From a virus, in the IMG/VR virus record IMGVR_UViG_3300042545_001229, positions 1 to 22,948 of that record: 22,948 nucleotides of DNA, one strand, 5' to 3'. The notes below the pieces were generated by a model. That model was given only the letters and a program-made list of their open reading frames with translations, made no database searches and was not told the DNA's origin. Every line of letters begins with the position of its first letter. Position 1 is the stretch's first letter. The position numbers and the translations under genes were made by a program. Positions 3,001-22,948 of the stretch are shown piece after piece.

Positions 3001-6000
3001 GGACCATCCACTATTTCGTACAATTATGCTAGTGGCGGTACAGTTCAAAAAGCTTTCATATCTACATCCCAGTACACCAATACTACAATTCTACCCGATG
3101 TTGATTGTAGTTTAACCTATAGTGAAAATTGTTGTGCCGATGTTTGGACTGCAATTGGTAATTATGTTGGAATAATAACCACTATAATTGGAATTGGTAC
3201 AACAGGAGCTCCAAATAATATAATATATCCATCTTTAGCGAAAGGTGGATCTACAGTTGGATTGAGTACTTTTAAATTAAAAAATAAAGGAACTTCTTTA
3301 TTCAAACATGAATTTCCTGGCAGTAACGTTGATATAGTTAATGATAAATTTATAATTGCTAATCATAATTTTCAGTCTGGTCAAGAGTTATTGTATTCAT
3401 ATTCTGGTGGCAGTCCTATTGGAATTGCAACTACTTCTTATGTTAATGGTAATCTTGATACATTATTGAATATTTTTAATTATGATGGAACTGCTATTTT
3501 AGAAAATGGATATAACGTTGCAATTACAACAAGTATTTCTGGAATAGTTCCAACAGGTCCAACTGGGACTATAAATTATACTCAAGTTTTGGGATTTAAT
3601 ACCACTGGATTTGGAACAAATGCCTTATTCAATGTATTGATTAATTATAATGGTGGAGGAGTTGCTATATCCACTTCTATTATTCCTACTTATGGTGGAT
3701 ATGGATATAATGTTGGGGAACAGGTTTCTATATCCGGAACGTACTTTGCAGGAACAAGTCCAACTAATGATCTAACATTTATTATCTCAAAAACCGGTCC
3801 AACAGTGATACAATCCGAAGCAAATACAAGTTATTTGTCGGTTCCTTCATTAGATTTAAGTGGAGCAACTTTTGATGTTTCTAGGGATTCGACTGGTGCG
3901 ATTACATATGTAAAAGTTTTAAATGGTGGGTCTGGCTATACTACCAATTCAGTTATTTCTATAGCAGGAACTTATATTGGTGGAACAGGATCTAAAGATG
4001 ATTTATCATTTAGTCCATTAGAACTTGGTACAAAAACTTTACCAACTTCAGTTTTTGTATATAAATTAAATGACAATGAATTTAAACTTTCTGGATTATC
4101 TACAAGTGTATTTTTAAATTTAACTGGTGTAGGCACAGCAACACATTCACTTTCATATAAAGAACCAAATTCTAGTGTAATAATTACTATAGATGGAATA
4201 ATACAAAAAGCTGTAACTAGAAAATCACTGAATGTTTCTTTTGCTTCTAGTGTTTCTTCAGCTTCAACAACAATAATAAGTATTTCTTCGGGAATTTCAT
4301 CTTTATCTACTGGTGATGTTATTGATATTGATGGTGAATATGTTTCCATTAAAACTATCGGCATAACCTCTACGAATCAAATAGAAGTTGTACGTGGTTA
4401 TTTTGGGACAGTTGCATTAGCACACACTGTAGGCGCTAGTGGAACAGTATTAGTGGGTGATTTTAATATTGTTGGAGATGTAATATATTTTGACCAATCT
4501 CCAAATGGAAAAATTGGACCAGTAGGGTTGGAAACAGGATCCGCATTTGGTGGTAGAGTTTTTAGTAGAAAGTTTGATCCCAATATCTCACAAGATAGAA
4601 ATATTCTGTTTGATGATATCTCATTATCTTTTACTGGTATTGCAGCAACAGAATTCACTTTAAAATCTGATGGACAAACTACGAATACTATTTTTAACAA
4701 CGTGAATAGTTCTACCAATATTAATAATAATCCTATAGTAACTATTAACAACGTATTTCAAAATCCAACAAGTGATTATACAGTTGATGGAGTTGGAACA
4801 AACGTAATTAAATTCTTATCGGGAACTCCAAATTCTGGAAAAATATCAAAAGTATCAATATCGACTAGTTATGGGTATGCTCCTAGAATTGGAGCAGCTG
4901 CTACCGTAATAGTTTCTACCGCTGGTACTATTAGTAGTGTAATTGTTACTGGATCTGGATCTGGATATAGAAATCCTCCCGTTATTAGTATTGCGTCCAC
5001 CATTGGATTTGGTGCAAGTGTTGTGGCTACAGTAAGTGCTGCAGGTACAATTTCTGGGTTTACTATTATTAATGCTGGATCTGGATATACAACTACTTCA
5101 AGACCAGAAGTTGCAATTGGAATCCCAACAGGATATAGTAATCTAAGTTTAGGTTATACTGGTGGAACTTCTGGAGTTGGCCAAAAAGCAAAACTTACAG
5201 TTGAAGTTGGTATGGGATCAAGTGTAATAACATACAAGTTTGATGAATCCGGAATTGGATATAAAGTTGGGGATAAACTTACCCCTATCGGAATAGTAAC
5301 TGATCCATCACTAAGTTTCCAACCCCTTGTACTAACAGTTGAAGAGGTGGAGACTGATAGTTTCTATGGATTCTATCCTGGACAATTTGTACAATTTGAT
5401 GATATCTCAGAATTCTTCAATGGATTTACAAAGAAATTTACACTTACAACTACTTTAAATGGCGTAAAACAAGTTTTAGGATTGAGGGTTCCCGATGGAA
5501 CTGATTTGGATATAACTAATAACATTTTTATATACGTAAATGATATTTTACAAGTTCCTAATGTATCATATAAGTTTTCTGGAAGTAGAGTAATATTTAC
5601 TGAACCACCAAAAGCAGGATCCAAGTGTGTTATTCTATATTATAGAGGTTCTTCAATTGATGTTGAGTTAATTGATCCACCTAAAACAATTAAACCGGGA
5701 GATAGTATAATAATACAGGAGAATCCTGAAGATTTATTTGATATCTCTCAATTTGATAGAGTTGTTAAAAAAATTACAGCTGCTGATCAATTTGAAACTT
5801 TTAATTATTATTCTGTTGGTATTATTACAGACCCAACAAAAATTAGACCTCTTACTTGGAAAAAACAACTTAATGATACTGTTATCAATGGTTCTTTATA
5901 TTCTAAATCTAGACCAAATCTACAGAGTAGTGTTAAACCATCTGCAACTATCATTAAGAAAATCGAACCTACAGACACTGTAATATATGTTGACAATGCA

Positions 6001-7938: not shown

Positions 7939-9534
7939 ATGCCCGCTATAATATCAGATCAATTTAGAATCTTAAATGCAGATAACTTTGTAAAAAGTGT
8001 TTCTGGAGTAGGTGATACTTCAAACAAATATTATACTTTTATAGGACTTCCTAATAGTAATAATCCAGCTGCTGGGGGATCTCCAACTTGGGTTTCAAAT
8101 ACTCCATCTCCTTTAGATGGATTTAAGGAAGAGTTTCAGGTTAAGGAAAGCATTATATCTTTGAAACAAATTGCAAGTCAAGATGTAAGAAGACTTGTTA
8201 GAAAAGTCACTTGGGTTGCGGGAAATACTTATGAAATGTACAGGCATGATTATAATGTCTTTAATGTAACTTCTGTTACCTCTCAAACGAGTCTATATGA
8301 AGCAAATTATTATGTAATAAATGAAGATTTGCGAGTTTATATATGTTTACAAAATGGAACTGACCCAGAAAATCCCAAAGGAAGACCATCTTTTGATCAA
8401 CCAACTTTTATTGACCTAGAACCCAGAGCAGCTGGCGCTAGTGGTGATGGGTATATCTGGAAATATTTGTACACTATTAAACCTTCTGAAATCGTTAAGT
8501 TTGATTCTATTGAATTTATTCCAGTACCAGAAAATTGGGGAAATACCGGAGAATCAATATCCACAAAAAATAACGCAATTGATGGTAAAATCGAAGTCAT
8601 ATTGATTAATAATAGAGGTTCGAATTATCAACCAATTTCAACATCTTTTTCAAATGTTCCAATTTTGGGAGATGGTTCTGGTGGAAAAGCTACAATAACT
8701 ATTGATTCTTTTGGAAAAGTTTCTGAAATTTTTGTTACTGATGGGGGAAAAGGATATACTTATGGGACAATTCAGTTTTATCCAGGAGCTCCTGGATCTG
8801 AAATTGATGGTCCTCTTCGTCAATTGAGTAATACTGGAATAGGAAGTACATCCATATCTTCTTTTAATGTTATTATTCCACCAAAAGGTGGTCATGGGTA
8901 CGATGTTTATCGAGAATTAGGCGCATACAGAGTATTGTTATACTCTAGATATGAAACTCTAGAAAGTAACCCAGATATTATTTTGGGAAATGATTTCGCT
9001 AGAGTTGGAATTTTGAAAAATCCAACTATTGTTGGAAGTAGTAATCAACTGTTAGATGCATCTTTGGTTAGTGGACTAAATGCTTTAAAACTATCTGGAG
9101 TTACAACTAATACAACGTATGGTGTGGACTCTGTAATTAAACAGACTGTTGGACTAGGTTCTACTGCAATTGGATTTGTATCCTCTTGGGATTCAATAAC
9201 TGGTGTTTTAAAATATTATCAACCGACTGGGTTAGGTTCAAGTGAAACCGGATTTAAAATCATTCCATTCACTTCCAATCCAGATGTTGGATATGGATTA
9301 ACAATTAATTGTTCATCCATCATTGGCCCAACATTATCAATTAATTCTAATTTTAGTGGGGTAAGTACCACAATAAATAATAGAATATATCAGTTAGGTC
9401 AAGAGTTTGTAGCTGGCATTTCTTCTGCTGAATATAATAAAAAGTCCGGTGATATTATCTATTTGGATAATAGACAACCAATTCCAAGATCAGCTAACCA
9501 AAAAGAAGACATTAAAATTGTACTGGAGTTCTAA
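7939..9534 (+). CDS. gp8: Baseplate wedge subunit gp8
   Basis: 531 residues, similar to T4 gp8, the wedge subunit that joins gp6, gp7 and gp10 in the contractile baseplate. Evidence: SGDGYIWKYLYTIKP at residues about 168-182 matches T4 gp8 GDGYVWEYLFEIPP. The following EFIPVPENWG matches the EYIVVPWP...RWG region. The C-terminus GDIIYLDNRQPI...ANQKEDIKIVLEF (residues 504-531) lines up with GEMIYMENRPPI...DQTEEINILFTF. The N-terminus has the K-YYTFIGLPN (IFITFGR in T4) and W-x-S-N-T-PSPLDG pattern. The protein is about 200 residues longer than T4 gp8 (334). The extra length is mainly a middle region with GGKGY (about residue 270) and KGGHGY modules, which also occur in its neighbours. The ATG at 7939 has no strong Shine-Dalgarno sequence. 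Identification is firm. Confidence 0.92.
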   Translation: MPAIISDQFRILNADNFVKSVSGVGDTSNKYYTFIGLPNSNNPAAGGSPTWVSNTPSPLDGFKEEFQVKESIISLKQIASQDVRRLVRKVTWVAGNTYEMYRHDYNVFNVTSVTSQTSLYEANYYVINEDLRVYICLQNGTDPENPKGRPSFDQPTFIDLEPRAAGASGDGYIWKYLYTIKPSEIVKFDSIEFIPVPENWGNTGESISTKNNAIDGKIEVILINNRGSNYQPISTSFSNVPILGDGSGGKATITIDSFGKVSEIFVTDGGKGYTYGTIQFYPGAPGSEIDGPLRQLSNTGIGSTSISSFNVIIPPKGGHGYDVYRELGAYRVLLYSRYETLESNPDIILGNDFARVGILKNPTIVGSSNQLLDASLVSGLNALKLSGVTTNTTYGVDSVIKQTVGLGSTAIGFVSSWDSITGVLKYYQPTGLGSSETGFKIIPFTSNPDVGYGLTINCSSIIGPTLSINSNFSGVSTTINNRIYQLGQEFVAGISSAEYNKKSGDIIYLDNRQPIPRSANQKEDIKIVLEF

Positions 9535-9539
9535 TAGAA

Positions 9540-12500
9540 ATGGCACAAAACACTAATTTAAATACATCTCCATATTTTGATGATTTTGATCCAACAAAAA
9601 ATTATCAAAGAGTTTTATTTAAGCCAGGAACTCCAATTCAAGCAAGAGAACTAACAACACTACAATCTATTCTACAGAATCAGGTTGAAAAATTTGGTAA
9701 ACACTTTTTCAAAGAAGGATCTGTAGTAATTCCCGGAAATATTGCATATGATTCAGAATATACTTGTGTTCAAATTGACCCAACTCACTTAAGTATTCCA
9801 GTAATAACTTATTTGTCATATTTGATTGGTAAACAAATAAAAGGCGAATCGAGTGGAGTATTTGCTAAGATTGAAAATTATATTACTAGTGAAGAATCTG
9901 AAAATGATAGCTTTACTTTGTATATAAAGTACCAAAGTTCTAGTGAAACTGATTTTACTCGTAGTACTTTTATTGATGGAGAAAATTTAATCGTTCTAGA
10001 AAATATTGATTATGGATTAGGTGTTATTAGACTAGAATCATCATTTGCAACTACAATTATATCCAATTCAACTGCAACAGGATCTGCAGCAAAAATAGAA
10101 TCAGGTGTTTATTTCATAAGGGGATTTTTTGTAGACGTTTTTCCTCAAACAGTAATATTAGATCAATATTCAAATTTACCATCCTATAGAATTGGACTAT
10201 CTATTTTTGAAGATATAGCCGTACCTTCCCAAGAAAATTCTGATTTATTTGATAATGCTAGGGGATTTTCAAACTTTGCTGCTCCTGGAGCAGACAGACT
10301 TCGAATTGTAACAACTTTAATAAAAAAATCTTTAAATGATTTTAATGATGAGAACTTTATTGAGTTATTGAGGATTGAAAATGGAAATATTAAGAGAATT
10401 CTTAAAAAAGAAGATATTCCCTCTCTAATAACAGATGAGTTAGCAAGAAGAACAACCGATGAGTCTGGAGATTATTATGTAACCCCATTCAGAGTTGTTC
10501 CAAAAGAATCATTAAATGACAAAATAGGAAATAATGGTGTTTATAATTTAGGTCAATTAACTAAACAAGGAAGTACCCCTTCAGACGACCTATTGACATT
10601 GCAAATTTCTCCAGGAAAAGCATATGTCAAAGGATACGAAGTAGAAACTCTTGTAACAGTAAATGCAGATCTGGAAAAACCCAGAACTACAACAACTGTT
10701 AACGACGTAACTGTTCCTTTTAGTTTAGGTAACCAAGTAGAAGTTAATAATGTTTATGGATCAGTTCCTGTTGGATTTGGTTCAACTAGTCAAGTAACAT
10801 TATATTCAAAAAGAACTGCAACACCAGGTCTTCCTTCTGGAATTCCAGTAGGAGTAGCTAGGATTTATGATTTAAAATTAAAAAATACTGCATATTCCAA
10901 TTCTTCTACTCCTTTTGAAGCATCGGTTTATGATGTACAAACTTATACATATTTGACATTAAATACTACCATAACCCTATCCAAACCATCGTTTGTTGAG
11001 GGTAAAAATAGTTCTGCATCTGGATATTTATCGTCATCTGTTACAAATAGCAATCAATTGGTACTATATCAAACTTCTGGAGATTTTATTGTAGGTGAAC
11101 AATTAAAAATTGATGGTCAAGATATTTCCAGAACAATAGTTAGTGTTAGGGATTATGATCTGGGAGATATAAGACAACTAGTTGGATATGTTGGAACTAC
11201 AACATCTTTTACTGCAGACACTGCAATATCTGTAGGAGTTCCTATTGCACCACAAGGAACTACTTTTACCATCTCTGCAGGCTCTGGGGGAATAAGCACT
11301 GTAACAACATCATCCTCAACTTTTGGGGTAGGGATTAACACTGGAGACATTTTTGTTTATACTAAGTCTGGGGAAATATTACCTACTTACAATAGAGTTA
11401 CTTCTGTAAGTGTTTCTGCAAAATCTATAACTATTGAAGCAACCACAAGTGTTTCTGGCATCAATAGTGGAGGATTACCCGCAAGCACAACAACTACGAG
11501 TGGATTGTTTAAAGGAGTTTCTACATTATTAAATAACAAACAATCATTTTTATTCGCCGAACTGCAAAATCAAAATGTTGCAAGCGTTGATGTTTCTGAT
11601 GCTGAAATAGTTTATAGAAAATCATATTCTGTAACCGTTGCATCTAATGGTTTGACAGCGACTTTAGAAAGTGATACTAATATCACTTTAGAGACATTTG
11701 ATGAGGAAGACTATTCTTTAGTGTTCTCTGATGGTACTGTTGAAACATTAACTTCCAGTCAATTTACGATTACCTCAGGAAGAACTTTAACATTAGTTAA
11801 TTTAAGTAAAAATGGTTCTGCAACATTAACGGTCACTTTAAGAAAAAGAAGATTAAAATCAAGGAAGAAAATTTTTAATAGATGTGCAGTTTTAGATATC
11901 AGGAATTCTAGTACTCGTTCATCTGGAATAGGTAGCACAACTCTCAATGATGGACTAACATATAGTCCATATTATGGCACAAGAGTGCAAGACTCCAGAA
12001 TATCGTTAAATGTACCCGATGTAATCTTCGTTGCAGGTGTTTTTGAATCTTCAGATTCTAATGATGCTGAGTTACCAAGATTGGAAGTTGTTGATTTAAA
12101 TGCAAATATTTTGAATGCAATTAAAGGTGAGATAATTTATGGACAATCGAGTAATGCAATAGCAAAGTTTGTTGCAACTAACGGAACAAATCAATTAGAA
12201 TTTGTATATATTAATGAAAATGCTTTTATTAAAGGCGAAAAAATCCTATTTGGGGAGTCAAATGTTAGTGCAAGAATAAGCGCTTTAATAGAAGGCGATA
12301 GAAATATAATGACTGATTTTCTTTTTGATAATGGTCAAACTTTGGAAATAGTTGACTATTCTTCTTTGAGAAGAAAGTCTGGCGTAACTTCGCCAACAAA
12401 GAGGTTAAAAATAATATATGATTATTACTACATAGATCCTAACGATACGGGAGACTTCGTAACTGTTAGTTCATATGAACGTGAAAGATACTCACAAGAC

Positions 12501-15500
12501 TTGCCAAGAATTTCTTATTATAGAGCAAGCGATATTGTAGACTTAAGACCTAGAGTTAGCCCATATAATAGTACTTTAACTCCGTTTTCTCCGTTTGAAT
12601 TTGATTCAAGAAAGTTTTTACCTGCAACAAATTCTAGTCCATATAATTTTGCTAAAGATAAGGACCTATTTTTATCATATTCTTACTATCTTGGTAGAAT
12701 TGATAAATTATATCTTAACCGATATGGAGAATTTTTTGTTACAAAAGGAGTAGCATCACAAACTCCAATTGCTCCAAATAATATTGAAAATGCTATGGAA
12801 GTAGCTACTATTTCCATGAGTCCATATGTTTATAACGTTAAGGATGTAATCGTTAAATTGTCCTCACACAAACGTTATAGGATGCAAGATATTGCAAGAC
12901 TTGAAGATAGAATAAGAAATATTGAATACTATACTTCACTATCTCTCTTAGAGACTGATACTAAGAATCTATCTTTAAGAGATTCACAAACTCAGTTAGA
13001 TAGATTTAAATGTGGTTTTCTTGTAGATAATTTTAAATCAATACGTTCAGGATCCTTGGGTGATTCTCAACATAAGTGTAGTATTGATACCATAGAAGGA
13101 TTACTTAGACCTCAACATTACACCACTTCAATAGATCTTCTTTTAGGATCAGAATCTGTAACGGGAATATCTAATATTTCAAATCCAGATGCTGATTTAA
13201 GGTTTGTAAAAGATTTAGGAAATCCAAATACAGTTAAAGTTGGCGATGTTGTTTGTTTAAAGTATAGTGATGAAGTATTTTTAAAGAATACTTTTGCAAC
13301 TAGAGTTGAAAATGTCAACCCATTTAATGTTGTTAACTGGATTGGATCTATCGAATTAAATCCATCAACGGATACTTGGATTGAAACTAGAGGATCAAAA
13401 AGGACAATCGATCAAGAAGGAAATTATGAAGCTACACTAAGAGCTCTTGGTGCGGATACTAATACTGGGTTATCTCCAATAGATTGGGGTTCTTGGGAAA
13501 CTACTTGGACTGGTAGACAAGAAATTGCCAGACAAAATGTGCATACTATATTCCAAGGAACTACTTTCGTTGGATCTACAGGTAATTGGTGGAGAGAAGA
13601 ACAAACTTTCAGAGATCAGTTTTTGACCTTTGCAAATGTTACTACTCTTACTACTTCGCAACAATCTAGACAAGGTATTCAATATAAAGTTGGCGAAAGA
13701 ATAGATTCTGTCAACTTGGGAACTTCTGTTGTATCTACAGAAATTGTTCATGTAATGAGATCTAGAAATATTGAGTTCATAGCAAAAAGATTAAAACCAA
13801 AAACAAAAGTTTATGCGTTTTTTGATAACGTTGATATGAACAAATATGTTGTTCCAAAGCTTATTGAAGTCCAAATGGAAAGTGGTACTTTCACTGTTGG
13901 AGAAACAGTCGTTGGTACAGTAGGAACAACATCAATTAAATTTAGATTGTCAACTGCTAACCATAAGTACGGACCATACAATCAACCTGAACAAGTTTAT
14001 ACTGATAATCCATATTCACCTACACAACTAATACCCATATCCTATTCAACAACTTCAACCATATTGAATGTTGATACAGCTTCTCTAGAATTACAATCTG
14101 CTTCTGGATTCTATGGACATATTATTACAAACATGCAACTGAGAGGCGAAACTTCTAAGGCAGTCGCAAAAGTAACGGATGTTAGATTAGTTAGTGATGT
14201 CTCTGGCACTGTGATTGGATCATTGTTTATCCCCGATTCAAGATTGCAGTCTACTCCATCATTTGAAACCGGAACAAAGACTTTTACTCTTACAACCAGT
14301 TCCACAAATACACCAATTATTGGCGCTACAGATAGTATAGCTGATGTTAAATTTAGATCATCGGGAACTATAAACAATACTGAAGAGGTTACTTTAAGAA
14401 CAAGGAATGCAAATGTTGAGAGAACTAGTAGAACTGAAGAAAGAACTTCAACTTCTCAAGAAACAGCACTGACAGCAGGAACTACTTTTATAAACCGTAC
14501 TGTAGTTCAAACCAGATGGGTTGACCCAATTGCACAGTCTTTTGAAGTCCCTGAAGAAACTGGAATTTTTATTACAAAATGTGATTTGTTCTTCAGAACT
14601 AAAGATACTAACAGTTTACCAATTACTATGCAAATCAGAACCATGCAAACTGGTTTGCCAACGACAACAATTATTCCTTTTGCTGAAGTTGTCTTAGATC
14701 CAAGTCAGGTTAATGTATCGGAAGATGGTAGAACTCCAACAACATTTACTTTCCCATCTCCAGTTTATCTTGAGAGTGGAAATGATTATTGTGTAGTATT
14801 ACTTTCAGTATCTAATGAATACACTGTATGGATTTCTAGAATGGGTGAGGAAGATGTAACAACATTGAATCTACCAGAGTCACAAAAAATAGTTGTATCG
14901 CAACAACCTTTATTAGGATCTATGTTTAAGTCTCAGAATGGTGCTACATGGGATCCTAGCCAATTAGAAGATCTCAAACTAACTCTTTATAGAGCAAAAT
15001 TTGTTACAGGATCTTCTACAGTTAGATTCTATAATCCAAAATTAGATATTGGTAATAATCAAATTGTAACTTTAAGACCTAATCCATTAGATTGTATTTC
15101 CAAATCAACTTTGATTGGACTAGGGAAGAGTCTGACTTCAACGGAGGTTACTGGATTAACCCCCGGAAGTCCAATATTGCAACGTAACAATCAAACTTTT
15201 AGATCTAATTTAAAGAGTATAGTTGGTTCTGTAGGAATTGGAAGCACATTAGTAGTAACTTCTGCAGGAGCCGCATTTACATCTACATTTAAAACTTATT
15301 CCAATGTAGATTTAGTTTCCATGACTGGTTTTGGTTTTGGGGCCAAAGTAAATTTAAGTGTTCAAAATGGAGTTGCTATTGCAGCCACAGTTTCTATTGG
15401 AGGTACTGGATACGCTTATGGAGATTCATTAGAAGTTAATTATTCCCAAACAGACGGACTTGGTAATAATTTAATTCTTACAATTCCAAACAATGTAGGA

Positions 15501-17024
15501 ATTATTTCTTCTTTCAATTCTCTATTAGTAGACAGAGTACAAGGAACTCTAAATCAAAATACTGTAGATAGTCTGTACTATGTTGGTTCTTCTGGAACTT
15601 CACTTCTTTCTAATGCAACGGTAAATACCATAACCGATTTGACTGATGGATTACATTTTAAAGTAAGTCACAACAATCACGGAATGTATTCTTTGGCTGA
15701 TAAAGTTGCACTTTCGGGAATGCAACCAGATCAAAAACCTGAAACATTAAAAGCTTTATATGATTCAACATCTACAAGTAATATTTCAGTAAGTTCTGTT
15801 GGAATATTTACAAGCTTTGAGAATGTTCCAGTATCTTCCGTAAATCCCGGATATATTTTAATTGATAATGAAGTTATCAAATACACTGGAGTAGTTACAT
15901 CTACAAATAGTCTAATTGGAATAACTAGAAACATTGACGACACCATTTCTGGATCATACGATATTGAATTTCCTATCTTTAAATATGAACTGAATGGAGT
16001 ATCTCTGAGAAGAATAAATAAAACTCATAATTTATCCGACACTAACTTAGTAACTTATCCAACTGATTTAGATTATTATTATGTTAAGGTTGGAATGAGT
16101 AGTAGAGGTATTGATAGAACACCAGGAAATGTTCTTGGATATCCTGCTTTATATTTTAACGATGATAAGTCTTGTGGGTCATATGATATTGTTCCATTAC
16201 TTGGATCACCAAAAGGACCTAAAGCGACTCAGAACATACCATTTAACGTTATTAGACCAAATATTCAAACATTATTACCACAAAAAACCTCTGTATCCGC
16301 AAAGGTAAGAACCTTTAGTGGATCTACTCCAGATAGTGATTTAACTCCATTTTTAGATCAAGGATTTGTTGATATATCTCTGAATTCCAATAATGAATTT
16401 AATTCTCCAAGAATTATTTCTTCTCAAGTTAACGAAGAAACATATCTATCGAGTTTCCCTGGTAAAAAATCATTCACTATGGAGTTGACATTATCAACTC
16501 AAAATGAAAAAGTTTCTCCAATGATTGATTTGGATAGAGTAAATTTAGTTACTATTGCAAATAGAATTAATTCTAAAGTTGTAGACTATTCTACTGATCC
16601 AAGAGTTAATTCTCTGAAAGATGATCCAACTGCAGCAACATATCTAAGTAACATTGTTATTTTGGATAAGGCTGCTGATAATTTGAAAGTGTTCTTTGAT
16701 GCTTTCAGACATTCAACAAATGATATTAGAGTATGTTATAGAATCTTTAGATCTGATGCTCCTTCAGAACCTCAACTTTGGCAGTTGTTCCCGGGATATG
16801 ATAACTTGGATGCAAATCTACAAGTCATTAATTCGGCTAAAAATAATGGAAGACCTGACAAAAATGTAACAAGTTCAACATCTGAAGACAATTTCAATTC
16901 TTATGAATTTACTGCTGTTAATTTACCGCAGTTTAATGGATTCCAGATAAAGATCTTAATGTCGGGAACTAATTCAGCATTTGTTCCAAAAATTAGAGAT
17001 TTTAGAGTTATTGCAACGATTTGA
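9540..17024 (+). CDS. Giant DUF4815-type virion structural protein (probable baseplate/tail rim, T4 gp9/gp10 position)
   Basis: 2494 residues, starting six bases after the gp8 stop; a GGAG at 9525-9528 precedes the ATG by 11 bases. The N-terminus (residues 13-65: FDPTKNYQRVLFKPG, then QARELTTLQSILQ, FGKHFFKEGSVV) is the DUF4815 signature found in T4-like cyanophage and other phage structural proteins. A long beta-rich region follows, then a conserved-looking middle with a helical RLEDRIRNIEYYTSLSLLE (about residue 1120) and a Trp-rich stretch (WGSWETTW, GNWWREEQ, about 1313-1355). After a Ser/Thr/Arg/Glu-rich linker (about 1620-1650), a segment starting QSFEVPEETGIFITKCDLFF (about 1662-1820) looks like a beta-sandwich. 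A GGTGY repeat is at about residue 1955. No enzyme motif or membrane segment is visible. A baseplate-rim or fibre-attachment role is inferred from position after gp8. Confidence 0.85.
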   Translation: MAQNTNLNTSPYFDDFDPTKNYQRVLFKPGTPIQARELTTLQSILQNQVEKFGKHFFKEGSVVIPGNIAYDSEYTCVQIDPTHLSIPVITYLSYLIGKQIKGESSGVFAKIENYITSEESENDSFTLYIKYQSSSETDFTRSTFIDGENLIVLENIDYGLGVIRLESSFATTIISNSTATGSAAKIESGVYFIRGFFVDVFPQTVILDQYSNLPSYRIGLSIFEDIAVPSQENSDLFDNARGFSNFAAPGADRLRIVTTLIKKSLNDFNDENFIELLRIENGNIKRILKKEDIPSLITDELARRTTDESGDYYVTPFRVVPKESLNDKIGNNGVYNLGQLTKQGSTPSDDLLTLQISPGKAYVKGYEVETLVTVNADLEKPRTTTTVNDVTVPFSLGNQVEVNNVYGSVPVGFGSTSQVTLYSKRTATPGLPSGIPVGVARIYDLKLKNTAYSNSSTPFEASVYDVQTYTYLTLNTTITLSKPSFVEGKNSSASGYLSSSVTNSNQLVLYQTSGDFIVGEQLKIDGQDISRTIVSVRDYDLGDIRQLVGYVGTTTSFTADTAISVGVPIAPQGTTFTISAGSGGISTVTTSSSTFGVGINTGDIFVYTKSGEILPTYNRVTSVSVSAKSITIEATTSVSGINSGGLPASTTTTSGLFKGVSTLLNNKQSFLFAELQNQNVASVDVSDAEIVYRKSYSVTVASNGLTATLESDTNITLETFDEEDYSLVFSDGTVETLTSSQFTITSGRTLTLVNLSKNGSATLTVTLRKRRLKSRKKIFNRCAVLDIRNSSTRSSGIGSTTLNDGLTYSPYYGTRVQDSRISLNVPDVIFVAGVFESSDSNDAELPRLEVVDLNANILNAIKGEIIYGQSSNAIAKFVATNGTNQLEFVYINENAFIKGEKILFGESNVSARISALIEGDRNIMTDFLFDNGQTLEIVDYSSLRRKSGVTSPTKRLKIIYDYYYIDPNDTGDFVTVSSYERERYSQDLPRISYYRASDIVDLRPRVSPYNSTLTPFSPFEFDSRKFLPATNSSPYNFAKDKDLFLSYSYYLGRIDKLYLNRYGEFFVTKGVASQTPIAPNNIENAMEVATISMSPYVYNVKDVIVKLSSHKRYRMQDIARLEDRIRNIEYYTSLSLLETDTKNLSLRDSQTQLDRFKCGFLVDNFKSIRSGSLGDSQHKCSIDTIEGLLRPQHYTTSIDLLLGSESVTGISNISNPDADLRFVKDLGNPNTVKVGDVVCLKYSDEVFLKNTFATRVENVNPFNVVNWIGSIELNPSTDTWIETRGSKRTIDQEGNYEATLRALGADTNTGLSPIDWGSWETTWTGRQEIARQNVHTIFQGTTFVGSTGNWWREEQTFRDQFLTFANVTTLTTSQQSRQGIQYKVGERIDSVNLGTSVVSTEIVHVMRSRNIEFIAKRLKPKTKVYAFFDNVDMNKYVVPKLIEVQMESGTFTVGETVVGTVGTTSIKFRLSTANHKYGPYNQPEQVYTDNPYSPTQLIPISYSTTSTILNVDTASLELQSASGFYGHIITNMQLRGETSKAVAKVTDVRLVSDVSGTVIGSLFIPDSRLQSTPSFETGTKTFTLTTSSTNTPIIGATDSIADVKFRSSGTINNTEEVTLRTRNANVERTSRTEERTSTSQETALTAGTTFINRTVVQTRWVDPIAQSFEVPEETGIFITKCDLFFRTKDTNSLPITMQIRTMQTGLPTTTIIPFAEVVLDPSQVNVSEDGRTPTTFTFPSPVYLESGNDYCVVLLSVSNEYTVWISRMGEEDVTTLNLPESQKIVVSQQPLLGSMFKSQNGATWDPSQLEDLKLTLYRAKFVTGSSTVRFYNPKLDIGNNQIVTLRPNPLDCISKSTLIGLGKSLTSTEVTGLTPGSPILQRNNQTFRSNLKSIVGSVGIGSTLVVTSAGAAFTSTFKTYSNVDLVSMTGFGFGAKVNLSVQNGVAIAATVSIGGTGYAYGDSLEVNYSQTDGLGNNLILTIPNNVGIISSFNSLLVDRVQGTLNQNTVDSLYYVGSSGTSLLSNATVNTITDLTDGLHFKVSHNNHGMYSLADKVALSGMQPDQKPETLKALYDSTSTSNISVSSVGIFTSFENVPVSSVNPGYILIDNEVIKYTGVVTSTNSLIGITRNIDDTISGSYDIEFPIFKYELNGVSLRRINKTHNLSDTNLVTYPTDLDYYYVKVGMSSRGIDRTPGNVLGYPALYFNDDKSCGSYDIVPLLGSPKGPKATQNIPFNVIRPNIQTLLPQKTSVSAKVRTFSGSTPDSDLTPFLDQGFVDISLNSNNEFNSPRIISSQVNEETYLSSFPGKKSFTMELTLSTQNEKVSPMIDLDRVNLVTIANRINSKVVDYSTDPRVNSLKDDPTAATYLSNIVILDKAADNLKVFFDAFRHSTNDIRVCYRIFRSDAPSEPQLWQLFPGYDNLDANLQVINSAKNNGRPDKNVTSSTSEDNFNSYEFTAVNLPQFNGFQIKILMSGTNSAFVPKIRDFRVIATI

Positions 17025-17295: not shown

Positions 17296-17628
17296 ATGGC
17301 GGCAAGGAATGTAAACTTAGTTCTTGAACAAGGGGTTGACTTTCAAGCCACCTTTACAATCAGGAATACTAATAACGCACCACTAAACTTAACTGGATAC
17401 ACCGGCATTTCCTCAATTAGGAAACATCCCGCATCTTCAACAACATACCCACTAACACTGGCTTTTCCCGATAGAATCAATGGAAAAATTGCAGTTTCTA
17501 TGGGATATACTGCAACTGACGCGATTGAAGGCGGTCGTTATGTTTATGATATTATTCTTATTTCTCCTAATTCTTACAGAACCCGAGCTGTTCAAGGAAA
17601 CGTTCTGGTAACTCCCGGAGTATCATAA
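17296..17628 (+). CDS. Small Ig-like / BppU-N-like virion structural protein
   Basis: 110 residues, all beta in character. The first part (LEQGVDFQATFTIRNTNNAPLNLTGY) has the pattern of BppU N-terminal-like and Ig-like phage baseplate domains: a strand, then a short N/G turn, then PLNLTGY. The second half, GGRYVYDIILISPN...RTRAVQGNVLVTPGVS, has the Y-x-Y-D-I strand and G-x-V-x-V-T-P-x-V ending common in phage virion proteins. It follows a late promoter motif by 20 bases, and its stop TAA shares one base with the next ATG (TAATG, 17626-17630), so the two are probably translationally coupled. Probably a baseplate or fibre accessory protein; the family call is from pattern only. Confidence 0.75.
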   Translation: MAARNVNLVLEQGVDFQATFTIRNTNNAPLNLTGYTGISSIRKHPASSTTYPLTLAFPDRINGKIAVSMGYTATDAIEGGRYVYDIILISPNSYRTRAVQGNVLVTPGVS

Positions 17629-18349: not shown

Positions 18350-19357
18350 ATGGCACTATTAGTTCCAAATATTGGAGAACTTGAGTCACTCAGATATCTG
18401 GTTGCACAAAACAACCACACAGCCAGTCTTGCTGACCAGTCTCCCAGAAATTTAATTTTAAAACTTTTTACCAGCAACACGACTCCTGCAGAGTCTGATG
18501 TGCCTTCAGATGTTAGATATTATGAACCATATGGAATTGGTAATACAAATGCTTATGGATATGCACCATCTACTGGTTATCCATATTGTGTAAACAATAG
18601 AGCAGATCAAGTTTACACTTCACAGACTGGCATTCTATTAAATGGTTCTCGTTGGAGAATTAATCAAGTTGGTTCTGGTACAACTGCAACATATCCAGAA
18701 CAGACATTTACCTTCACTGGAGAAGCTGGAGATGTCTATGGTTATTATGTAACTCGTGCAAATAATATGCCTGTTGCTGTGCAAGGTGTTGTACACTATG
18801 CTTCTGTTGGTATCGGAACAACCGTATCTAAGGGAGATAATACCGATCCAGTTATTGGAGTTATTGGAAATCAATATATTACAATTGATCCAGATCAGAG
18901 TGTTGATGACCTAACTTTAGGAATGATTGTTGGTGGTAATGCTGGCATTCAGACAGGAACTCAGGTTATTGGTGTTGATAGAGCATTAAAAGTTGTATAT
19001 CTAGATAAATCTCTTATCGATAACATCCAAGTTGCTACAGATCCAAGCGTTACATTTAGTTATGGTAAGATTGTAGCTAATGGACACCAATTAGTAGCAG
19101 GAGATATTCTTTATGTTGCTGCTGGTACTGGAAATACAACAGTACAATCAAATACGTATACCGTATTCTCTGTCCCAAATGCAAATGAGTTCTATACAAC
19201 TCCTGCATTGACTCCGGTTTCAAATTCTACTGTTGGATTAAATACAGCAACTCTTTATAGTTCTATAATGTACGCTGAAAGATTTACGAATGGTCCTTAC
19301 ACGATTCAAAATAATGGAGACCAGATTAAAATTACATTAAATGTTGCTCTTGATTGA
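18350..19357 (+). CDS. Conserved virion structural protein (cyanophage type)
   Basis: 335 residues, MALLVPNIGELESLRYLVAQ at the N-terminus, with a helix-like start and then beta-rich sequence. The ending (YAERFTNGPYTIQNNGDQIKITLNVALD) resembles the C-terminus of conserved cyanophage structural proteins as I remember them. The central part (residues about 150-260) has GIGTTVSKG and a VIGNQYITIDP...LTLGMIVGGNAGIQTGTQVIGVD segment, typical of repetitive fibre or adhesin-like beta structure. Codons are somewhat richer in G and C than in the giant genes, and the gene has an exact late promoter, a strong Shine-Dalgarno sequence and a terminator 30 bases after its stop. That is the signature of a separately and highly expressed virion component. 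Possibly a fibre or head/tail decoration protein; role not proven. Confidence 0.8.
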   Translation: MALLVPNIGELESLRYLVAQNNHTASLADQSPRNLILKLFTSNTTPAESDVPSDVRYYEPYGIGNTNAYGYAPSTGYPYCVNNRADQVYTSQTGILLNGSRWRINQVGSGTTATYPEQTFTFTGEAGDVYGYYVTRANNMPVAVQGVVHYASVGIGTTVSKGDNTDPVIGVIGNQYITIDPDQSVDDLTLGMIVGGNAGIQTGTQVIGVDRALKVVYLDKSLIDNIQVATDPSVTFSYGKIVANGHQLVAGDILYVAAGTGNTTVQSNTYTVFSVPNANEFYTTPALTPVSNSTVGLNTATLYSSIMYAERFTNGPYTIQNNGDQIKITLNVALD

Positions 19358-19360
19358 TAT

Positions 19361-19367
19361 CTAAATA
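19361..19367 (+). promoter_or_regulatory. Possible late promoter (CTAAATA) just upstream of a terminator
   Basis: CTAAATA begins four bases after the stop of the previous gene, followed by AATATA. It is 80 bases before ATG 19448 and, oddly, upstream of the intrinsic terminator at 19387-19419, so a transcript starting here would meet the hairpin within about 30 bases. It may be a chance match or an attenuated promoter. Confidence 0.35.
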
Positions 19368-19386
19368 AATATATTATTCGTTTTTG

Positions 19387-19419
19387 GGGGATTGTTATAA
19401 AAACAATCCCCATTTTTTT
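19387..19419 (+). terminator. Rho-independent terminator
   Basis: A perfect 10-bp stem, GGGGATTGTT (19387-19396) with AACAATCCCC (19402-19411), closes a 5-base loop ATAAA and is followed by CA-free sequence A then seven T residues (19413-19419). On the other strand the stem is not followed by a T-run, so it works on the + strand only. It closes the transcript of the 335-residue structural gene and separates the baseplate block from the repeat-protein genes. Confidence 0.93.
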
Positions 19420-19447: not shown

Positions 19448-19825
19448 ATGAATATCTACGAGTATAACTCATCATCCATAAATGAATACTTGGAAGAAGA
19501 TTTTGGAAGTATTACTTCTTTTCCAAGTGAAGTGTTTGACTGCCAAAAATTGAGTAGTAATTGTGAGGTAGTTGATAATTATGGAAATATTACATGCAAT
19601 GAAACTTTAATTCCTTTTGGAAGTATTAGAATAGAACCATCTAAAGAAAAAGAGACTTATAAAATAATTTCTTCCGAAGCTAGAAAATTTGAAGATATTA
19701 ATAAAAAATCTATTCTATTACATGGAATTGTATTCAGATGGATTGGATTTAATGTTATATTTGAATCTAATAGTTCATTAATAAGACAAGTTATTCCCGA
19801 TGTATCTGGAGGTGGAGTAAAATGA
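19448..19825 (+). CDS. Small protein sharing a module with the following repeat protein
   Basis: 125 residues from ATG 19448, with AGGG six bases upstream (19438-19441). An upstream in-frame TTG (19418) lies in the terminator T-run and is unlikely to be used. The N-terminus EYNSSSINEYLEEDFGSIT matches the form of SYNESSVLLYTTEDYDTL near the N-terminus of the next gene, and IPFGSIRIEPSKEKETYKI resembles its VPYGSLSISGSAVE units. It therefore looks like a single-copy relative of the neighbouring repeats. Later it is more hydrophobic (ILLHGIVFRWIGFNVIFESN). Three Cys occur in residues about 30-50. Its stop overlaps the next start (ATGA, 19822-19825), so the two are probably translationally coupled and may act in the same fibre. 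Function unknown. Confidence 0.75.
   Translation: MNIYEYNSSSINEYLEEDFGSITSFPSEVFDCQKLSSNCEVVDNYGNITCNETLIPFGSIRIEPSKEKETYKIISSEARKFEDINKKSILLHGIVFRWIGFNVIFESNSSLIRQVIPDVSGGGVK
19808..19817 (+). promoter_or_regulatory. Strong Shine-Dalgarno sequence for the repeat protein
   Basis: GGAGGTGGAG, inside the end of the previous gene, places GGAGG nine bases before ATG 19822. Together with the ATGA overlap it fixes the start of the large repeat protein. Confidence 0.75.
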
Positions 19826-22800
19826 CTGACTTCAGTTATCAGGGAATACCACAAAATATTCAATTACAACAAACTTGTTTAGAAGAAATATCTATATCAT
19901 ATAATGAATCTTCCGTACTTCTCTACACTACGGAAGATTATGATACACTACAGGGAATATTACAACCGAATGGTTTTAGTAATAATACAATAAATTTTAG
20001 TCAAACAACGCATACTTTTGACGAAATAAATGATGTATATGATTTGTCGGATGACTATGGACTCATAAGTGTACCGGCTTCAATTAGTGTTGACAATGGT
20101 TCTGTACTAACTTCTACCAGTCTGTATCCTTTTGGTGGATTAACATTTGGTGGATCAGCAAATACTGAATATGTTGATAAGATTTTTTACGGATCTGCAA
20201 AATATAACTTTGTTCACCATCCAAATGATATTGGTGGAACTTTATTTGGATTCGGTGAAAAATTAGAAAGTAAAACTTACGATTATAACGAATCTTCTGT
20301 ACTTCTCTACACAACAGAAGATCTCGGTGATCTAAATGTCACATCTGATTCACCGGACGACTACGGACTTGTAAGTGTACCGGCTTCATTTAGTTTTGAT
20401 CAGGGCTCTATACTAACTTCTACTAGTCTTTATCCTTTCGGTGGATTAACATTTAGTGGATCAGCTATAACTCAAGTAAATTATAGACTATACCTCTCTG
20501 GAACATCTGTAGAAAAAGTAACGTATAGTCCAGAAGGAACTGGAACTCTATTTGGATTTGGACAAGTACTAGAGAGTAGAAGCTACAGATACAATGAACC
20601 ATTAGTTCCATATGGTTCATTAAGTATTTCTGGATCTGCTGTAGAATCATTTACTTTAGATCAACCGGAATCAACTCAACTGTTTGAAATTTATGGTAAA
20701 GCAGTACTCAATGTAACCCCAAGATTCTATGGAAGGGGATCATTTGTTGCTTCTGGACAAGCTATAGAGAAAGATTCGGATACTTATGTAGCTTCAGGAT
20801 CACTCTTCAGCTTTGGAGAGAAAGTTGAGAGTATCACCTACAGATATAGTGAAGATTCGATTGAAGATTCCATAAACGATTATGGATCTATTTTAGATAC
20901 TAATCTTACAGTATTTGAAGATTCTGGATTTATTACTGACAACCCAGGACCAATATTAGATTATGGATTGATTTCCTTAGATATCATACAACCACTAGTT
21001 CCATATGGTTCATTAAGTATTTCTGGATCTTCTGTAGAAAGATTTACTTCAGACTATCTAGAATCAACTCAACTGTTTGAAATTTCTGGATCTGCTTCTG
21101 ATATTAAACTTGCATTCTCTTCTGACACTACTCAGATCTTCCAGATATATGGACAAGCTATAGAGAAAGATTCGGATACCTATATTGGCCAAGGTTCTCT
21201 ATTCACCTTTGGCGAGAAAGTAGAGAGTAGGACCTATAGATACAGCGAAGACTCCGTAGACGATCCCACAGACGACTATGGATCTGTTGTAGACGATGAT
21301 CTTACTGGACTCCAGGATTATGAATTTATCATTAATGATCCAACATCTACAATTGATCATGGTTCCATTATTGAAAGTATCCTTAGTAATCAGTACCCAT
21401 ATGGTTCATTAAGTATTTCTGGATCTGCTGTAGAAAGATCTACTTCAGACTATTCGGGATCAACTCAACTGTTTGAAATTTCTGGATCTGCTTCTGACAC
21501 TAGAACATATTATACAGAGAATACCCAACTCTTCCAGATATATGGACAAGCTATAGAGAAAGATTCAGATACTTATGTAACTTCTGGATCACTCTTTAGC
21601 TTTGGGGAGAAAGTAGAGAGTAGAAGCTACAGATACAGCGAACCATTAGTTCCATATGGTTCATTAAGTATTTCTGGATCTGCTGTAGAGAAATTTACTT
21701 CAAATTATCTGAAGTCAGTTCAACTATTTCAAATTTCTGGATCTGCTTCTGATATTAAACTTACATTCTCTTCTGACACTACTCAGATCTTCCAGATATA
21801 TGGACAAGCTATAACGAAGGATGTAGATTCTTATGTTGCTACTGGATCACTCTTTGGGTTCTCTTCTGGACTAGAAAGTTTTGTACAGAGATATGGTGGT
21901 TTTGGATCAATTAATATCTCTGGTTCCAAGTTTGAAAGTTTCACCAGAACTACTTATATTGGATCTGGTATAATTTCTCTTAGTGGAGATTCTAGAAATT
22001 ACTCCCCAGTTTATCCAATAAATTCTGGAGATCCTAATGCTGGAAAGGGAATTATCCAGATTGTTGATGCAGGATCAATTTACAGGGCAACTCTACCATA
22101 CAAAGCTAAGGGATCTATATTTGTATCTGGTTTTGGTAATGAAAGCTTTATAAGAACGAATTATACAGGTTCCGGATTAATAACCTTCTCCGGAAGATCT
22201 TTTAATAGAGAAATTGCAGTATATGCAAATATTGGATCTGGATTTATTCAGATTTCCACTCAAACTCAACCAATAATTGAAAAGAACACCGAATCATATT
22301 CGGGCTCTGGAACAATTACTTTATCAGATCAAAGAGTTAATAGGAGAGCCTTTAGTTATTCTGGTAATGGTTCAGTCAAACTAACTTCAAGTGCTCAAGA
22401 ATCACTTTCCTCTCAAACTCCAGAACAAACAATTCTCTTTAATACATCTGGAACTGCAAGAGAAAGATTTATTGCACAAACACCTGAAACAGAGGTACTT
22501 TATGAATTTAGTGGAAATTCTGTTCTAAGAAAGGGATTTGCTTATGCTGGATTTGGTCAAATACTCTTTGCAGAATCCTCCTCAGTTGTTACATTTACAT
22601 CCAGTATTTCTGGCCAAGGAACAATCAGATTCAAAACTCATCTGGTTGATAATACTTATGATACTTGTGATTCCGAAGATATTACTTGTGATTATGAAAA
22701 TAGTGCTTCTATAAGATTTGTAGCTAATCCACCAGAATCTACACAACTATTCAATGTCTTTGGATTTGCAAACACCAATCAAATACACACTAATGAGTAT

Positions 22801-22948
22801 ATTGGTCTCGGTAATATTCAAATTTCGGAATCTATTGGAAGAATACGAAAAATCAACTCCTATGTTGGTGTAGGAACTATATTCGAATTATCTGCAAGTC
22901 AAGTATATGATGTCGATTCGTATGTAGGGAAGGGAACTTTATTTGCAC
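19822..22948 (+). CDS. Large repetitive fibre-like structural protein, 3'-truncated
   Basis: Starts at ATG 19822 (ATGA overlap, strong Shine-Dalgarno) and stays open for 1042 codons to the window edge; I read every codon and found no stop. The whole protein is built of short beta repeats of roughly 20-40 residues, such as YxGSGxIxISGxAxE and GSLFxFGEKVESRxYRYSE. Residues about 27-215 hold two copies of SYNESSVLLYTTED plus DDYGLxSVPASxS...LTSTSLYPFGGLTF. Residues about 260-680 hold four near-identical VPYGSLSISGSAVE blocks alternating with IYGQAIEKDSDTY units. After about residue 690 the repeats diverge. There are no Cys except a few (first residues, and TCDSEDITCDYE near 22660-22695). No enzyme motif, signal peptide or membrane segment is seen. 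This is the look of a fibre shaft or other long surface protein; host-contact role inferred. Confidence 0.85.
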   Translation, partial: MTDFSYQGIPQNIQLQQTCLEEISISYNESSVLLYTTEDYDTLQGILQPNGFSNNTINFSQTTHTFDEINDVYDLSDDYGLISVPASISVDNGSVLTSTSLYPFGGLTFGGSANTEYVDKIFYGSAKYNFVHHPNDIGGTLFGFGEKLESKTYDYNESSVLLYTTEDLGDLNVTSDSPDDYGLVSVPASFSFDQGSILTSTSLYPFGGLTFSGSAITQVNYRLYLSGTSVEKVTYSPEGTGTLFGFGQVLESRSYRYNEPLVPYGSLSISGSAVESFTLDQPESTQLFEIYGKAVLNVTPRFYGRGSFVASGQAIEKDSDTYVASGSLFSFGEKVESITYRYSEDSIEDSINDYGSILDTNLTVFEDSGFITDNPGPILDYGLISLDIIQPLVPYGSLSISGSSVERFTSDYLESTQLFEISGSASDIKLAFSSDTTQIFQIYGQAIEKDSDTYIGQGSLFTFGEKVESRTYRYSEDSVDDPTDDYGSVVDDDLTGLQDYEFIINDPTSTIDHGSIIESILSNQYPYGSLSISGSAVERSTSDYSGSTQLFEISGSASDTRTYYTENTQLFQIYGQAIEKDSDTYVTSGSLFSFGEKVESRSYRYSEPLVPYGSLSISGSAVEKFTSNYLKSVQLFQISGSASDIKLTFSSDTTQIFQIYGQAITKDVDSYVATGSLFGFSSGLESFVQRYGGFGSINISGSKFESFTRTTYIGSGIISLSGDSRNYSPVYPINSGDPNAGKGIIQIVDAGSIYRATLPYKAKGSIFVSGFGNESFIRTNYTGSGLITFSGRSFNREIAVYANIGSGFIQISTQTQPIIEKNTESYSGSGTITLSDQRVNRRAFSYSGNGSVKLTSSAQESLSSQTPEQTILFNTSGTARERFIAQTPETEVLYEFSGNSVLRKGFAYAGFGQILFAESSSVVTFTSSISGQGTIRFKTHLVDNTYDTCDSEDITCDYENSASIRFVANPPESTQLFNVFGFANTNQIHTNEYIGLGNIQISESIGRIRKINSYVGVGTIFELSASQVYDVDSYVGKGTLFA
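19900..20466 (+). repeat. Two-copy module at the N-terminal part of the repeat protein
   Basis: The segment beginning TATAATGAATCTTCCGTACT (19900) recurs at 20284, and the DDYGLxSVPAS...FGGLTF segment at 20050-20160 recurs at 20356-20466. Spacings are 384 and 306 bases, both multiples of three, so the middle differs by 78 bases. Many differences are synonymous (TCC/TCT, TAT/TAC, AAT/AAC), so the protein module is held by selection. Confidence 0.8.
20608..21833 (+). repeat. In-frame near-identical direct repeats encoding fibre blocks
   Basis: CCATATGGTTCATTAAGTAT begins at 20608, 21001, 21397 and 21652, spaced 393, 396 and 255 bases (131, 132 and 85 codons). Each copy leads into TTTCTGGATCT and GTAGA, and then a TTTGAAATTTCTGGATCTGC (or similar) segment. 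A second repeat, GGACAAGCTATAGAGAAAGA, occurs near 20755, 21157 and 21544, with a variant near 21808. The segments starting at 21001 and 21652 stay close for about 180 bases. High DNA identity in frame suggests recent duplication or recombination. Confidence 0.88.

Follow-up and report, generated by a model that had tools for sequence, protein, structure and literature searches.

Directly upstream of a long repeat-fibre gene in a virus fragment of 22,948 bases, of the T4-like cyanobacterial-phage type (the window, meaning the whole stretch of DNA that was analysed), lies a gene for a protein of only 125 aa that shares sequence motifs with its neighbour and overlaps it by four bases. The question raised by this pair is whether the small gene is a repeat copied out of the fibre, a factor that serves the fibre from outside, or a piece of the fibre itself. 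A preliminary description had treated the small protein as a single-module relative of the repeat protein, arisen by duplication or acting as a cap or adaptor. We compared both proteins with each other and with the products of the same locus in related phages.

Genomic context of the small gene

The gene order of the window is that of Synechococcus phages S-SSM7 and Sf-FS3 and is similar to that of S-CAM1, S-CAM3 and S-SCSM2R. As in the repeat-fibre family of T4-like cyanophages, the head gene (the small gene) lies directly downstream of a phrog_10467 gene. The features upstream of it are as follows.

7939-9534, gp8-like baseplate wedge protein
9540-17024, DUF4815 protein
17296-17628, match to the PHROG of L-shaped tail fibre assembly proteins (E 2.4e-26; Pfam LtfC below its cut-off)
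from 17628, phrog_10330 gene
18350..19357, + strand, phrog_10467 gene, the anchor by which the locus was found in other phages without bias between split and fused forms
19387..19411, + strand, terminator-like hairpin GGGGATTGTT...AACAATCCCC followed by seven T, between anchor and head gene

At the left end of the window, the truncated ORF 1-7905 contains repeated SVGxxGxIxxSxDGxxW-like units at about 6300-7200, which appear propeller-like by eye.

A module shared by the small protein and the fibre gene

The two genes and the parts of them that enter the comparisons are given below.

19448..19825, + strand, small gene (ATG at 19448, TGA at 19823-19825), 125 aa, detached fibre N-terminal head, homologous to the N-terminus of one-piece fibres
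19448..19645, + strand, head residues 1-66, recurring module YxYNxSS...EDFGSI...DYGxI...PFGSI (profile comparisons)
19646..19813, + strand, head residues 67-122, N-terminus-specific segment (WxGxGTxFExxxGLERxVxP in relatives)
19808..19813, + strand, GGAGGT, Shine-Dalgarno-like site for gene 2, within Gly codons of the head's C-terminus
19822..19825, + strand, ATGA stop/start overlap of the small gene and gene 2
19822..22948, + strand, gene 2, remainder of the fibre, with 1042 aa inside the window and an open end (phrog_11522, E 6.4e-42)
19900..19938, + strand, first Y-N-x-S-S copy in gene 2, residues 27-39 (motif search)
20275..20460, + strand, best module copy in gene 2, residues 152-213 (profile)
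20839..21030, + strand, further module copy in gene 2, residues 340-403 (profile)

Both motifs that had been singled out in the preliminary description are present in both proteins. The small protein has a single YNxSS[IV]xxYxxED, at residue 6, and the window part of gene 2 has two, as described, at residues 27 and 155. Of [IV]P[FY]GS[IL]xI there is a single copy in the small protein, at residue 55, against three in gene 2, at residues 262, 393 and 610; these three copies lie beyond the end of the segment to which that description had confined the likeness. When gene 2 was shuffled 20,000 times with its composition kept, the first motif arose 0 times and the second once.

For a clean test of the shared module we used a profile of 18 small proteins from which the window's own clade had been excluded, with the set size fixed at 1000. 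This profile matched gene 2 with a full-protein E of 5.1e-13, the match being limited to about residues 3-67 of the small protein; it found no match among six other window proteins, and its best E against 200 shuffles was 0.99. The module common to the two genes is thus genuine. The profile-profile alignment proposed earlier also gave significant similarity: 20 small proteins against 76 gene-2 module copies reached a probability of 98.75 % (E 1.2e-15), where column-shuffled controls (n=20) reached at most 1.54 %. As the 76 copies had been picked with a profile containing the small family, these values are inflated by selection, and the clade-excluded profile is the cleaner test. The C-terminal half of the small protein showed no similarity to the gene-2 modules by profile-profile comparison (probability 0.05 %).

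Searches of the small protein against Pfam and NCBIfam gave no match and those against PHROGs gave only chance-level matches (best 0.067). An alignment of heads compared by sequence with solved structures returned one chance-level match (E 1.6), and gene 2 returned none at E 1. The mean pLDDT of an AlphaFold model of the small protein (31-row alignment A4) was 47.4, with a pTM of 0.21; for 338 aa of L094 (alignment A5), where a head is naturally fused to the first of its repeats, the values were 34.2 and 0.17. Neither model is good enough to carry a structural reading. The match of gene 2 to phrog_11522, a family of unknown function, does not extend to the window's small protein, which alone gave no match to this 2130-position profile, whilst 10 of the 31 heads in A4 did match it (best 1.3e-8).

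The C-terminus of gene 2 lies outside the window. In a near-identical contig (L003) the gene is complete, at 1199 aa, and ends NNPYQIPRSYVIII, resembling the C-terminus of fused fibres, ...NNPFQIPRTYVVII; this full-length copy carries the family C-terminus N-P-[FY]-Q-I-P-R-x-Y-x-x-I-I.

One-piece and two-part forms of the same fibre

In S-SSM7 and Sf-FS3, and in other contigs, a single long ORF follows the anchor and begins with the small protein's homologue. We surveyed this arrangement by classifying the first ORF after the phrog_10467 anchor, ORFs of at least 200 aa being scored as fused. The survey comprised 91 loci (85 contigs, the window and 5 isolate records, with anchor scans that each took the best 80 matches), many of them near-copies of, or contained in, one another. 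Among the matches listed, 51 loci were fused, 33 were split, five had no downstream ORF on the contig and two were truncated; distinct heads numbered 28 fused and 22 split, again among the matches listed. All five isolate records were fused. The anchor protein is present in 17 phage records, and eleven further isolate records (S-SSM7, S-SSM6a, S-CAM1, S-CAM3) together with one unannotated marine record stood outside the locus count. Two heads that lack the W motif (L034 and L035) were excluded from head counts, and the figures for ordinary split heads on cysteines, profiles and modules leave out two divergent split loci (L092 and L102).

A wider set of 163 loci was assembled with S-SSM7-like and S-CAM1-like anchors (best 80 matches per scan) and three genome contigs from bacterial sets; 12 of the 163 have an exact 400-mer in common with a locus of the first set. 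Among the matches listed, 134 of these were fused (one of which, L185, begins with unrelated sequence), none was split, 14 were truncated and 15 were not readable. The split form is restricted to part of the sampled family, and, the fused form being the wider state, the latter is probably the older.

Which part of the one-piece fibre corresponds to the small protein is indicated by its C-terminal half. By profile-profile comparison, this half in split small proteins matched fused heads with a probability of 95.4 % (E 5.7e-9). A C-half profile, which itself included 11 fused heads, matched 31 of 33 long fused fibres and did so near the N-terminus in each (L040 has an additional copy further in); the S-CAM3 and S-SCSM2R heads were not found by it. 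Amongst second genes of split pairs it matched three of 24, weakly (13-16 bits) and internally, and at their own N-terminus the segment was found in 0 of 24 long second genes. Residues 67-122 therefore represent a segment that is normally present in a single copy per fused fibre and is not found at the N-terminus of gene 2. The family's N-terminal head, namely the module plus the WxGxGTxFExxxGLERxVxP segment, is present in the small gene, the segment in the window's own head being a weaker version, WIGFNVIFESNSSLIRQVIP. The N-half module, for its part, was found by profile search in 56 of 57 fibres. It is there at least twice in 21 of 33 fused fibres and in 22 of 24 second genes, and this repetition in both forms marks the module itself as an old internal repeat of the fibre. 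The label of single-module relative holds, then, for residues 1-66 of the small protein but not for residues 67-122, which are the N-terminal segment of the relatives' fused fibre. Homology and complementarity give good support to the view that the small gene and gene 2 are, as judged from sequence, one fibre cut in two.

The annotated start of the one-piece form may itself need correction in S-SSM7. At L001 8001-8070, the annotated start of S-SSM7 SSSM7_110 lies 23 codons downstream of the homologous start. The intervening segment (LTVFVYDN...) is conserved, begins at TTG and recurs in related contigs, which suggests that the deposited S-SSM7 protein probably lacks the start of the head.

These comparisons bear on what the small protein might otherwise be. 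Small genes that adjoin fibre genes often encode assembly factors, and the nearby gene at 17296-17628 matches the PHROG of L-shaped tail fibre assembly proteins; both count towards reading the small protein as a fibre assembly chaperone that stays outside the virion. In relatives, however, this sequence belongs to the fibre polypeptide itself, and a fibre repeat module within the small protein favours a structural role, so that we hold a chaperone to be unlikely. A still poorer prospect is the duplication originally proposed, whereby one repeat module was copied out of the fibre gene and now forms a cap. Residues 1-66 are clearly the same module as that of gene 2, but residues 67-122 differ from the gene-2 modules. 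Their match is to the N-terminus of the one-piece fibres that occupy this locus, and they are absent from the start of gene 2, as they are from the N-termini of all 24 long second genes. The cap or adaptor reading, taken apart from its origin, is compatible with the position of the small gene.

The expectation that the two genes always occur together was borne out for the small gene, which among the matches listed is paired with a following fibre ORF at 32 of 33 split loci; at the remaining one, L107, the contig breaks off 117 nt later. As to the neighbour being a repeat gene, it was only partly borne out: no copy of the head module could be recognised in the L092 second gene, and in L102 the second ORF stops after 263 aa, its continuation lying in another frame.

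The junction between the two genes

The ATGA overlap at 19822..19825 was as first described. Across the 32 readable split pairs the overlap is 4 nt in 25 and 1 nt in seven, and the frame of gene 2 with respect to that of the small gene is constant. At 19 of 21 distinct split junctions GGAGG stands 6-12 nt upstream of the second start, and at the other two GGTGGGGG is present. In ordinary split heads the GGAGG site is encoded by the glycines of a conserved end (e.g. VIPDVSGGG, VVPDKSGGG), whilst in the divergent L092 and L102 the ribosome site is encoded by other codons. The conserved overlap together with GGAGG points to translational coupling and away from frameshifting.

Programmed -1 frameshifting, by which both frames would be joined and a fused fibre still made, would account for the constant relative frame in 32 of 32 readable pairs, but the ATGA and TAATG/TGATG overlaps both yield that frame automatically. 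Moreover, no slippery heptamer common to the junctions of the 33 split loci was seen by eye, the second genes have their own start codon with GGAGG or GGTGGGGG at the distinct junctions, and the open codons upstream of the gene-2 start numbered only 5-16 in five junctions checked. We consider frameshifting very improbable. As for an artefact or a decaying gene, that is, a sequencing error or recent mutation in a normal fibre gene, fused relatives do exist, but conservation of frame and restart refutes it, 22 distinct small proteins keeping an open frame and, where readable, an overlapping restart, and 18 of the 22 being only 44-53 % identical to that of the window.

We also considered a hidden internal start in fused heads. 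At the homologous place GGAGG was found in 0 of 26 fused heads, and this candidate was rejected; one head had GGTGG there and five had an in-frame ATG/GTG.

The intergenic stretch before the head gene differs between forms. TAAATAA occurs no more than 30 nt after the anchor stop in 19 of the 21 distinct stretches from ordinary split loci (19358-19411 in the window), in 0 of 28 fused stretches and in 0 of 2 divergent split stretches; we take it to be late-promoter-like. Hairpins similar by eye to that of the window are found in both split and fused loci. As TAAATAA precedes the hairpin in the window, the latter could be part of the head gene's 5' leader.

Cysteine content of heads and shafts

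Ordinary split heads contain two to five cysteines each in 20 of 20 cases (2.15 % of residues), whilst none of 27 fused heads has more than one (0.12 % of residues), these counts coming from related sequences that are not independent. Head positions 32 and 50 are each cysteine in 15 of the 20. The divergent heads of L092 and L102 have one cysteine each. Second genes contain 0.24 % cysteine overall, and a cysteine within the first 20 residues is present in 11 of 19 and absent in eight (e.g. L038, L072 and L095). Elsewhere in the fibre, near its C-terminus, gene 2 residues 949-956 (22666-22689) hold two cysteines seven residues apart (TCDSEDITCD); many fused fibres likewise have two cysteines at this spacing in their last third.

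A report on phage Milano describes disulfides by which the baseplate is linked to the tail spike and the short tail fibre (PMC10811340). It is conceivable, if rather doubtful, that the split serves as an exchangeable joint, in which one head lineage would be combined with shafts and tips that recombine between split and fused phages, and disulfides between head Cys32/Cys50 and a cysteine near the N-terminus of the shaft protein would replace the peptide link. The cysteine counts of heads and second genes, and the disagreement between the head tree and the fibre C-terminus tree described below, speak for such a joint; the eight second genes that lack an early cysteine and the single cysteines of the L092 and L102 heads speak against it.

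Evolutionary history of the split

In the head tree, from which L035 was also left out, the 20 ordinary split heads group as a single clade with support 99/96. It stands beside the S-SSM7 and Sf-FS3 heads, whose rows were flagged as long branches and whose place as sister is unsure. The L092 and L102 heads, 20-22 % identical to that of the window, stand apart from the ordinary split clade and look like a second, separate split event. Together with L109 and L110 they represent a divergent split form with a small protein of 115-116 aa that has no Y-N-x-S-S motif and contains PFWIGSGTVFEM...APWLVGDP, with the same 4-nt overlap.

The anchor tree gives a different picture. Split and fused forms alternate on it with at least five changes, two of them forced by well-supported branches, and a single split origin on this tree was rejected on account of the five split/fused changes it requires. 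Constraining the 21 ordinary split rows to one clade was rejected at p 0.0115, a rejection that depends on L072, as p is 0.137 once that row is left out. Split phages being scattered in this way, cassette exchange or repeated fission would be needed. A tree of the fibre C-terminus, which includes the interrupted fibres L058 and L102 on very long branches, also mixes split and fused forms, with five changes, two of them forced, and disagrees with the head tree. The histories of heads, anchors and tips seem to differ in part, which is what exchange of fibre parts would produce. At three split loci (L072, L073 and L074) the heads are identical and the second genes differ (1607 and 1773 aa, and L072 open at 1321 aa), probably through changed repeat number.

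Comparison with known fibre systems

The closest described counterparts are S-SSM7 SSSM7_110 and Sf-FS3 SfFS3_93, fibres located, like the pair in the window, at the same locus after the phrog_10467 gene. Their N-termini are 27 % identical to residues 1-123 of the small protein (E 1e-3 and 5e-3, respectively). In both, the repeat fibre continues in the ORF of the head as one polypeptide, with no stop and restart after the head, and neither has a cysteine in the whole protein, unlike the window's cysteine-rich head. Where the family standard places head, repeats and C-terminus in one polypeptide, the window has two overlapping ORFs and is a variant.

The T4-type long tail fibre is an end-to-end chain of gp34, 35, 36 and 37, of which the first binds the baseplate. 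It is likewise one fibre made from separate gene products, a likeness of organization; by comparison, the head in the window is very small, and amongst the relatives examined fused forms are the rule. A parallel of arrangement is offered by S-CREM2, in which the small protein of ORF84, 'tail fiber attachment' (42165-42554), is encoded directly before ORF85, a very long tail fibre (42559-57474), and both are recorded in the virion (PMC10665884, Table 3). The small protein of the window matched four phage records; S-CREM2 was not among them and may lie outside the collection searched. In the portion of the open-licence literature covered, we found no paper on the split fibre.

A probable fission variant of the one-piece cyanophage fibre

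Taking these lines together, we propose, with a probability of about 0.78, that fission severed the N-terminal head from the fibre to give the small gene, whose translation is probably coupled to that of gene 2, and that the head most likely lies towards the baseplate and bears the shaft. In the ancestral state, head and fibre would have been one polypeptide, as in most relatives examined. The reading frame would then have come to stop after the conserved N-terminal segment of the head. Gene 2 starts one base ahead of that stop, shifted to the -1 frame, and its ribosome site falls within the glycine codons of the head. Both proteins would probably be made from one message through translational coupling, and the head would do, as a separate subunit, the job performed by the fibre N-terminus in phages such as S-SSM7.

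At the level of sequence comparison, the homology of both halves, the complementarity of the genes, the conserved overlap and the confinement of the split to part of the sampled family are well supported. The direction of change is suggested by the sampling, fission being the simpler direction, and coupled translation of head and gene 2 by the junction. Attachment of the head to the baseplate is suggested by its N-terminal position in the fused form and by general knowledge of tail fibres; its joining to the shaft may be non-covalent or mediated by cysteines. The locus is better described as a fission variant of a known one-piece cyanophage fibre with an unusually cysteine-rich head.

Phage fibres decide which host is infected, and the division of long fibres among several polypeptides is usually known only as an end state. 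In these related phages one locus carries the fibre in both its fused and its split form, with the cut point, the new ribosome site and the change in cysteine content all visible. Because the two forms coexist with a visible cut, the transition from a one-piece to a two-part fibre, and any help that it may give to the swapping of tips, becomes directly testable.
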